DNA of 64,000 bases from Anaerolineaceae bacterium (GTDB lineage: Bacteria > Chloroflexota > Anaerolineae > Anaerolineales > Anaerolineaceae), in the NCBI GenBank assembly GCA_029975475.1, contig JARKPB010000019.1:124001-188000 (forward strand). The letters run 5' to 3'. A program made the position numbers and the translations under genes. The notes beneath the pieces were generated by a model. It had not been told where the DNA came from, ran no database searches, and saw nothing but the letters and a program-made list of their open reading frames with translations. Shown piece after piece: positions 20,201 through 21,136 of this stretch (its first letter is position 1; each line of letters starts with the position of its first letter).

Positions 20201-20286
20201 TGCTCCTCCCTGCAGGATGTCAGCCAAATGATGTTTTCCACAGCCTCATCAGTATAGCGCGGTTTGCCCGGTCTGTTATCCCAATC

Positions 20287-20340
20287 TTAACAAAATCTTC
20301 ACAAGGGCTTGATAAGCCCTTAACCTGGCGCGGGTAATAT
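20287..20340 (+). promoter_or_regulatory. PhoB/PhoP-like box of four 11-bp-spaced repeats with -10
   Basis: TTAACA (20287), TTCACA (20298), TTGATA (20309) and TTAACC (20320) recur at exactly 11-bp intervals with 5-bp spacers. A TAATAT -10 box follows at 20335-20340. TT(A/T/C)ACA-N5 direct repeats ending about ten bases before the -10 are the hallmark of PhoB/PhoP and other OmpR-family activators that replace the -35. A perfect 8-bp inverted repeat AAGGGCTT/AAGCCCTT overlaps (20303-20321). The box probably activates the PHP gene 35 bases downstream. Confidence 0.6.
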
Positions 20341-20374
20341 CAGGCTGTAGGTTCAGTGATTGGAGGTAAACCTT

Positions 20375-21136
20375 ATGGGACTCGCTGATTTACACGTACA
20401 CAGTCTTCACAGTTACGACGCCACCGCGACGGTTTCTGCCATTCTGAAGCATGTTGCGGATCAAACCGATCTGGATGTCATCGCTATAACCGACCACGAC
20501 AGCATGGACGGCGTGCGCGAGGCGCTGTCTCTGGCTCCGCGCTACGGGGTGGAAGTCATCCCCGGTATGGAGCTCAGCACCGCGGACGGGCATTTGCTCG
20601 CCCTGTACATTGACCACCCTATCCCGGCCGGGCTGCCGCTGGAAGAGTCGGTGCTGCGCGTTCGCGCCCAGGGCGGGCTCTGCATCGCCGCCCACCCGAC
20701 CGCCTGGGGCACCGAAAGCCTGAGTTTTGAGAAAATTCGCCAGGCGCTGGAAGTTCCCGGCGTGGCCGGCTGCCTGGTAGGCGTTGAAGCCTATAACGGC
20801 GGGCTGGTCTACACCCGCGAAAATCTGAGCGTCGCCCGCCGGTCCGCGCAGCTGCCGCTGGCGCAGACCGCCAACAGCGACGCGCATGTGTTAATCACCA
20901 TCGGTTCCTGCGCCACCCAGTTTGAGGGCCGCAGCGCGGCTGATCTGCGCCGCGCGCTGGTCAACCATCAGACCGTGCCCATGGTGGGCGAAGGCTTAAC
21001 CGGCCTGCAGGTGATTACCTCATACATTCCTCAGTATCTGCTGCGAAAAATGGGCTGGGCGCCGTACAGCGCCGGGCCGGACGCTCCGATCAGTTACGCG
21101 CGCATCTCGCGCCTGCCCTCCTTCCAGCCGGCTTGA
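20375..21136 (+). CDS. PHP-domain metal-dependent phosphoesterase
   Basis: 253 residues from ATG 20375 (GGAGGT seven bases upstream; the longer frame would start at a TTG inside it). The PHP-domain motifs in order are ADLHVHSLHSYD, DVIAITDHDSMDG, EVIPGMELST, CIAAHPTAWG and NSDAHV. They supply the His/Asp ligands of a trinuclear metal centre. Members hydrolyse phosphomonoesters or nucleotides such as 5'-AMP, pAp or short RNA. The upstream PhoB/PhoP-like box suggests phosphate-starvation control, which would fit a phosphate-scavenging enzyme. Confidence 0.88.
   Translation: MGLADLHVHSLHSYDATATVSAILKHVADQTDLDVIAITDHDSMDGVREALSLAPRYGVEVIPGMELSTADGHLLALYIDHPIPAGLPLEESVLRVRAQGGLCIAAHPTAWGTESLSFEKIRQALEVPGVAGCLVGVEAYNGGLVYTRENLSVARRSAQLPLAQTANSDAHVLITIGSCATQFEGRSAADLRRALVNHQTVPMVGEGLTGLQVITSYIPQYLLRKMGWAPYSAGPDAPISYARISRLPSFQPA

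Follow-up and report, generated by a model that had tools for sequence, protein, structure and literature searches.

A tandem-repeat element before a PHP phosphoesterase gene of an Anaerolineaceae bacterium is very probably a Pho box of a small low-phosphate regulon

An array of four direct repeats followed by a -10 box, at positions 20287–20340 of the window (the whole 64,000-nucleotide stretch of DNA that was analyzed), is in all likelihood a Pho box for a pst-linked regulator of the PhoB/PhoP type, which would replace the -35 and drive a gene for a PHP-domain phosphoesterase within a small low-phosphate regulon. Since the same pattern precedes phosphate-uptake genes in this genome and in its relatives, the PHP gene is very probably phosphate-controlled, and its enzyme would very probably be made when phosphate runs short. 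In the mechanism that we propose, two dimers of the regulator, phosphorylated when phosphate is short, would occupy the four 11-bp repeats in head-to-tail orientation; lying just 5' of the -10, they would recruit RNA polymerase, and the PHP enzyme would then help to release phosphate inside the cell. The regulon would comprise the PHP gene, pstSCAB-phoU, one of two surE copies and an arsC-like gene. We infer the binding of the regulator, the direction of regulation and the substrate of the enzyme; tandem binding of dimers and activation without a -35 are presumed by analogy with PhoB. This type of switch is well known from textbooks; what appears new is the set of genes assigned to it in this group. 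The analysis of this genome and of the 60 relatives searched provides a working Pho-box definition and a short regulon list for the lineage.

The preliminary description had reported four TTNANN hexamers at a strict 11-bp period, the last of them nine bases before a -10 box, and both statements proved exact: letters and coordinates agree, and TTAACC is followed by 9 bp and TAATAT (Table 1). The tandem direct repeats with 11-bp period that define a Pho box were thus found at 20287–20325, and the array stands 9 bp before the -10 (about 10 bp being expected), in the place of a -35. Four TTNA motifs at 11-bp spacing occur a single time in the 64-kb window, both strands counted, and never in 100 dinucleotide-shuffled versions. 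When the 147-bp intergenic region was shuffled, the same arrangement arose in 1 of 20,000 sequences, and with any period of 8–14 bp in 3 of 20,000. Further upstream, TTATCC forms a degenerate fifth repeat that scores 14.3 with the matrix described below, in a register shifted by 11 bp.

Table 1. Features of the putative promoter, its gene and further sites of the same model in the genome
Feature	Position	Strand	Basis or details
Probable Pho-box repeat 1, TTAACA	20287–20292	+	sequence, matrix
Probable Pho-box repeat 2, TTCACA	20298–20303	+	sequence, matrix
Probable Pho-box repeat 3, TTGATA	20309–20314	+	sequence, matrix
Probable Pho-box repeat 4, TTAACC	20320–20325	+	9 bp (20326–20334) 5' of the -10
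Degenerate fifth repeat, TTATCC	20276–20281	+	upstream, in 11-bp register with repeats 1–4
-10 box, TAATAT	20335–20340	+	sequence, matrix
Promoter module, 58 bp	20284–20341	+	matrix 35.4 bits; R1 18.7 bits, E 0.006 in own genome
Shine-Dalgarno-like GGAGG	20362–20366	+	sequence
Inverted repeat AAGGGCTTGATAAGCCCTT	20303–20321	.	overlaps repeats 3–4
PHP-domain metal-dependent phosphoesterase, 253 aa	20375–21136	+	ATG at 20375; PF02811, PF13263
pstS	contig 18		R1 31.3 bits, E 5.7e-7
arsC-like box	G000:C13:166092-166147 (L105 1500-1557)	-	R1 20.1 bits, E 0.002
surE box	G000:C18:561645-561688 (L106 1489-1546)	-	R1 19.0 bits, E 0.005
Weak site	G000:C12:40699-40750 (L108 1498-1555)	-	R1 14.3 bits, E 0.16

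In order to compare the array with phosphate-uptake promoters, a matrix of 58 columns was trained on 25 pstS upstream regions from other genomes, with no own-genome site and no PHP gene in the training set; its seed was taken from pstS promoters but was written after the window site had been seen. These 25 came from 30 pstS loci (L059–L088), leaving out the own one (L059), two with a wrong start (L076 and L077), L087 and L088, and the background base composition came from 27 upstreams, including those of the own pstS and L077. The resulting consensus was TTaAC.a..cgTTAACa...cctT........cTTAAac....c.tG.TAt.aT, and leave-one-out scores were 15.7–42.6 in 22 of the 25 promoters and 0.4–1.8 in the other three (L070, L082 and L084). 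The window site scored 35.4 bits and the own pstS promoter 42.7, the next-best window site free of overlap with the array reaching -0.8. Of 300 column-permuted matrices, the best gave 16.1 in the window, and none attained 35.4. A second matrix, built from seven pstS promoters of other families in the order, also placed the window site at the top (25.0), ahead of an overlapping register (2.5) and of the best separate site (1.4). A sequence-only model, R1, was then derived from 21 of the 25 promoters, without L070, L074 (wrong register), L082 and L084; in these 21 aligned promoters the TA and the final T of the -10 are invariant.

These comparisons bear on a plainer explanation, namely that the repeats arose by chance beside an ordinary sigma-70 promoter with TTGATA as its -35. 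This hexamer matches TTGACA at five of six positions, but it lies 20 bp from the -10, and among the pstS promoters it is the third repeat, the one at this position, that is least conserved. At the 15–18 bp spacings from TAATAT, the best TTGACA-like match is 2 of 6. As to chance, when the intergenic region was shuffled 10,000 times, the matrix score of the window site was never reached (best 12.9), and the repeats are conserved before orthologues, as described below. We consider the probability of this explanation negligible, and TTGATA was rejected as an ordinary -35 on account of the distance of 20 bp and of how poorly the pstS promoters conserve repeat 3.

The genome (3.15 Mb in 20 contigs) contains, on contig 18, genes for a response regulator (C18:1289744-1290451, L089 2745-3452) and a histidine kinase followed by pstS, pstC, pstA, pstB and phoU. 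PstS, PstC, PstA, PstB and PhoU all score above curated cut-offs. The regulator remains below the PhoB equivalog cut-off TIGR02154 (239.5 vs 296.2 bits) and the kinase below the PhoR equivalog cut-off TIGR02966 (280.2 vs 334.2 bits); both score higher with the YycF (274.8) and WalK (398.2) models, again below cut-off. Since the curated cut-offs were missed, the two proteins are called PhoB/PhoR-like by their position beside pst. A genome search for similar repeats before pst genes had been suggested as a check of the Pho-box reading, and it bore that reading out: the gap between the kinase gene and pstS carries CTTAACTTCTGTTTACGAAACGTTAACCTGACATTGCCAGGCGGTTAAACTGGGGATGCTATCCT, with units at 11 bp (the first off by one base), and the last TTAAAC is separated from the -10 TATCCT by 9 bp, the same distance as in the PHP promoter. 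The element is therefore also present before the own pst genes. Three PF12849 matches were found in the genome, including a weak third one (C4:4115, L013); the second pstS-like gene (C18:936446, L011) has no such array upstream by eye and is absent from the R1 list. On the 3' side of phoU (L089 10223-13270) there are two thymidylate-kinase-like ORFs, a CHAD-like and an HD/Ppx-like ORF, named by the look of their sequences, the last being also a 36% tblastn match. These ORFs are perhaps polyphosphate-related.

The architecture resembles that of known Pho boxes. According to excerpts of PMC4415409, the PhoB/PhoP box consists of tandem 11-nt direct-repeat units bound head to tail, and excerpts of PMC1906773 place the end of the E. 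coli repeats about 10 bp before the -10; the array shares with the boxes of PhoB (E. coli) and PhoP (Bacillus, Streptomyces) such 11-bp tandem units close to the -10. The letters differ, the repeats being CTGTCAT in E. coli and GTTCACC in Streptomyces (same excerpts of PMC4415409) and TTAAC-type here, and so does the number of units, two in the PhoB/PhoP box as against four plus a degenerate fifth. The closest letters, compared with CTTAACC here, are those of the cyanobacterial SphR box, whose CTTAACCT units of 8 bp with a 3-bp linker stand at least three in tandem, so that, on the excerpted account of PMC1906773, TTAAC-type repeats are already on record.

In the own genome R1 was applied with E values up to 10; scores were computed for 150 of the 411 first-look candidates, so weak sites may have been missed. 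The resulting list holds at least five places: pstS, an arsC-like gene, surE, the PHP gene and one weak site. The boxed surE product scores above the TIGR00087 cut-off; a second surE, 64% identical to the boxed copy, is absent from the list. The boxed arsC-like product resembles low-molecular-weight phosphatases and arsenate reductases, being above the PF01451 cut-off and below that of TIGR02691 (142.4 vs 174.3 bits). Because arsenate enters cells by phosphate transporters, phosphate control of an arsC-like gene would be sensible. In the own genome this gene is followed by one for an FAD-dependent oxidoreductase; in a relative (G047) an arsC-like gene sits between pstB and phoU. The weak site on C12, about 170 bp before a gene for a DUF2254 membrane protein, was not counted as a regulon member (14.3 bits, E 0.16).

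Conservation was followed in 61 genomes, the own one and 60 relatives. Orthologues of the PHP gene at 45% identity or more were found in 13 of the 60 others, at 14 places (that of G055 has an in-frame stop close to its end), and 11 of these 14 are preceded by a box, with matrix scores of 9.2–31.3 that were reached by 0–3 of 1000 shuffles. By the same comparison of matrix with shuffles, the box is missing at three places: G019, G035 and one of two G060 copies. Together with the own pstS promoter and the R1 list, these upstreams support the Pho-box reading put forward in the preliminary description. A scan of the 61 genomes with R1 at E values up to 0.1, under stricter filters and with no more than 91 scored candidates in any genome, gave at least 82 hits in at least 45 genomes. 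Hits within 250 bp upstream and on the same strand were present at no fewer than 5 of 15 PHP places, the own included (chance, 0.0007), and at least 6 of 72 surE places (chance, 0.0035) as well as at least 2 of 13 places of a glycosyltransferase-like (GT-like) gene (chance, 0.0006). By matrix, 7 of 30 surE upstreams scored 15 bits or more, 3 scored 9.8–14.8 and 20 fell below 0; surE is boxed in a minority of relatives.

Conservation also bears on the inverted repeat within the window array, in which the arms AAGGGCTT and AAGCCCTT around GAT form perfect 8-bp arms with a 3-base center. Were this the real element, either an operator for a dimeric repressor or a hairpin, the direct repeats would be a by-product. 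Upstream of the 11 boxed orthologues the longest arms measure 3–5 bp, and in 21 pstS promoters 3–6 bp; both sets keep the direct repeats instead. As the main element the inverted repeat was rejected, since neither set of promoters keeps it; we regard this explanation as extremely improbable, and the symmetry is probably incidental.

Gene order in relatives links the PHP gene to both surE and pst. The genes of G060 follow one another as phoB-phoR-PHP-surE-pstS-pstC-pstA-pstB-phoU, with two boxes before PHP (28.7 and 16.0 bits) and one before pstS (47.6 bits, this promoter being itself in the training set). In G047 a single gene on the opposite strand separates a PHP-surE pair from the pst operon, and beside it stands a group of genes that, by the look of their sequences, is presumably ppx-CHAD-sixA-like. 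These PHP-surE pairs beside or inside pho-pst clusters correspond to loci L103 1-9000 and L101 4300-17000. When the surroundings of the 14 orthologues were compared with one another and with 18 kb of the window, the neighbors common to at least three regions were a GT-like gene (6) and a surE-like gene (3); a few others were common to two regions.

It could be argued that a different member of the OmpR family (e.g., a WalR/YycF-like regulator) binds the array, in which case the PHP gene would answer another signal and pst would be only partly under that regulator. Winged-helix matches of the OmpR type number 13 in the genome, 12 of them above cut-off, and the best score of the cluster regulator is with the YycF model, though below cut-off. 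WalR also uses direct hexamer repeats. So does KdpE, according to the excerpted text of PMC3264566. On the other side, the same array stands before pstS in many genomes, including the own kinase-pstS gap; it precedes genes with a phosphate logic (surE, arsC-like, PHP); and G060 has PHP-surE inside its phoBR-pst cluster. Another regulator is thus decidedly unlikely, and we retain control by the pst-linked PhoB/PhoP-type regulator.

The gene behind the array had been described as coding for a PHP phosphoesterase, and the family assignment holds: the protein scores 40.1 bits with PF02811, above the gathering score of 26.4, and also exceeds the cut-off of PF13263 (PHP_C). None of the curated NCBIfam subfamily cut-offs was reached, including those for 3',5'-nucleoside bisphosphate phosphatase (NF041577, 44.1 vs 400 bits), RNase AM/RNM (NF047791, 32.6 vs 375 bits) and CehA/McbA metallohydrolase (NF038032, 62.4 vs 80 bits). 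Eleven residues (D5, H7, H9, D15, D40, H41, E66, H107, E138, D169 and H171) are invariant in 15 aligned PHP sequences, a pattern that fits a metal-binding PHP active site. Ten loci with more distant relatives (30–42% over parts) were used only as alignment depth for an AlphaFold2 model, which had a mean pLDDT of 83, with blocks after residue 200 below 65. The model matches PHP structures (3e38, 2anu, RNase AM 7ug9 and 9etk, 3e0f, and 2yb1). With 2yb1 from Chromobacterium violaceum (presumably a 3',5'-nucleoside bisphosphate phosphatase), RNase AM (7ug9, 9etk) and TM0559 (2anu), the protein has in common the PHP fold and metal-ligand-type motifs, at 18–22% identity and below curated subfamily cut-offs. 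The C-terminus is YIPRYLLRKLGWV-like, basic and hydrophobic, and is kept in the closer orthologues, with low confidence in the model; as a guess, it might contact the membrane. Our first guess for the substrate is nucleotides or RNA breakdown products, with SurE acting alongside.

A PHP-domain protein of Phaeobacter MED193, A3X3A1, is up under low phosphate in the wild type and absent from detection in a phoB mutant, as given in the part of PMC10132767 that includes its Table 1. The two proteins are likened by domain annotation only, and the annotation of A3X3A1 in that paper, unlike that of the window protein, combines an N-terminal polymerase/histidinol phosphatase part with a C-terminal PHP part. 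A literature search by subject rather than host species found no Pho regulon with PHP-surE or PHP-GT links, and the excerpts of PMC12260270 make no mention of a Pho box before surE. The present results would place an uncharacterized PHP subfamily in phosphate starvation and tie it to surE and the GT-like gene, links that make the question of its substrate approachable.

In five genomes (G004, G025, G007, G006 and G020) the GT-like gene lies 6–33 bp 3' of the PHP gene on the same strand, counted to its first possible start. Its product gave weak matches, none above cut-off, to family models for CDP-glycerol glycerophosphotransferase, UDP-GlcNAc 2-epimerase and surface-polysaccharide proteins, and a weak profile match (E 0.012) to the TagF-like capsule polymerase 8qoy. 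The gene was found in 12 of the 61 genomes (E up to 1e-20). Of these, 9 belong to the 14 genomes, counting the own one, that have a PHP orthologue, a co-occurrence with a hypergeometric p of 1.9e-5, uncorrected for relatedness. Where the gene stands directly behind PHP, no separate box precedes it, all five matrix scores being below -9. Elsewhere the scores were 27.5 (G047), 21.4 (G011), 17.9 and -2.8 (G001), 13.6 (own), 11.6 (G003), 6.7 (G016) and -16.1 (G041); over 2148 background windows, true sites included, the 99th percentile was 6.2. The GT-like gene is perhaps also in the Pho regulon. It is conceivable, if unlikely, that both genes form a lineage-specific remodeling pair for phosphate starvation, in which the PHP enzyme, kept at the membrane by its basic and hydrophobic C-terminus, would strip phosphate or phosphorylated headgroups from lipids or surface polymers and the transferase would rebuild these with sugar. 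The PlcP-Agt pair of Proteobacteria is a model for such remodeling, and the proposed pair would work alike; if true, the PHP superfamily would thereby acquire a new role. The own GT-like copy (L178, G000:C10:65500-66453, minus strand), not in the R1 list, has its weak 13.6-bit box right before the start.
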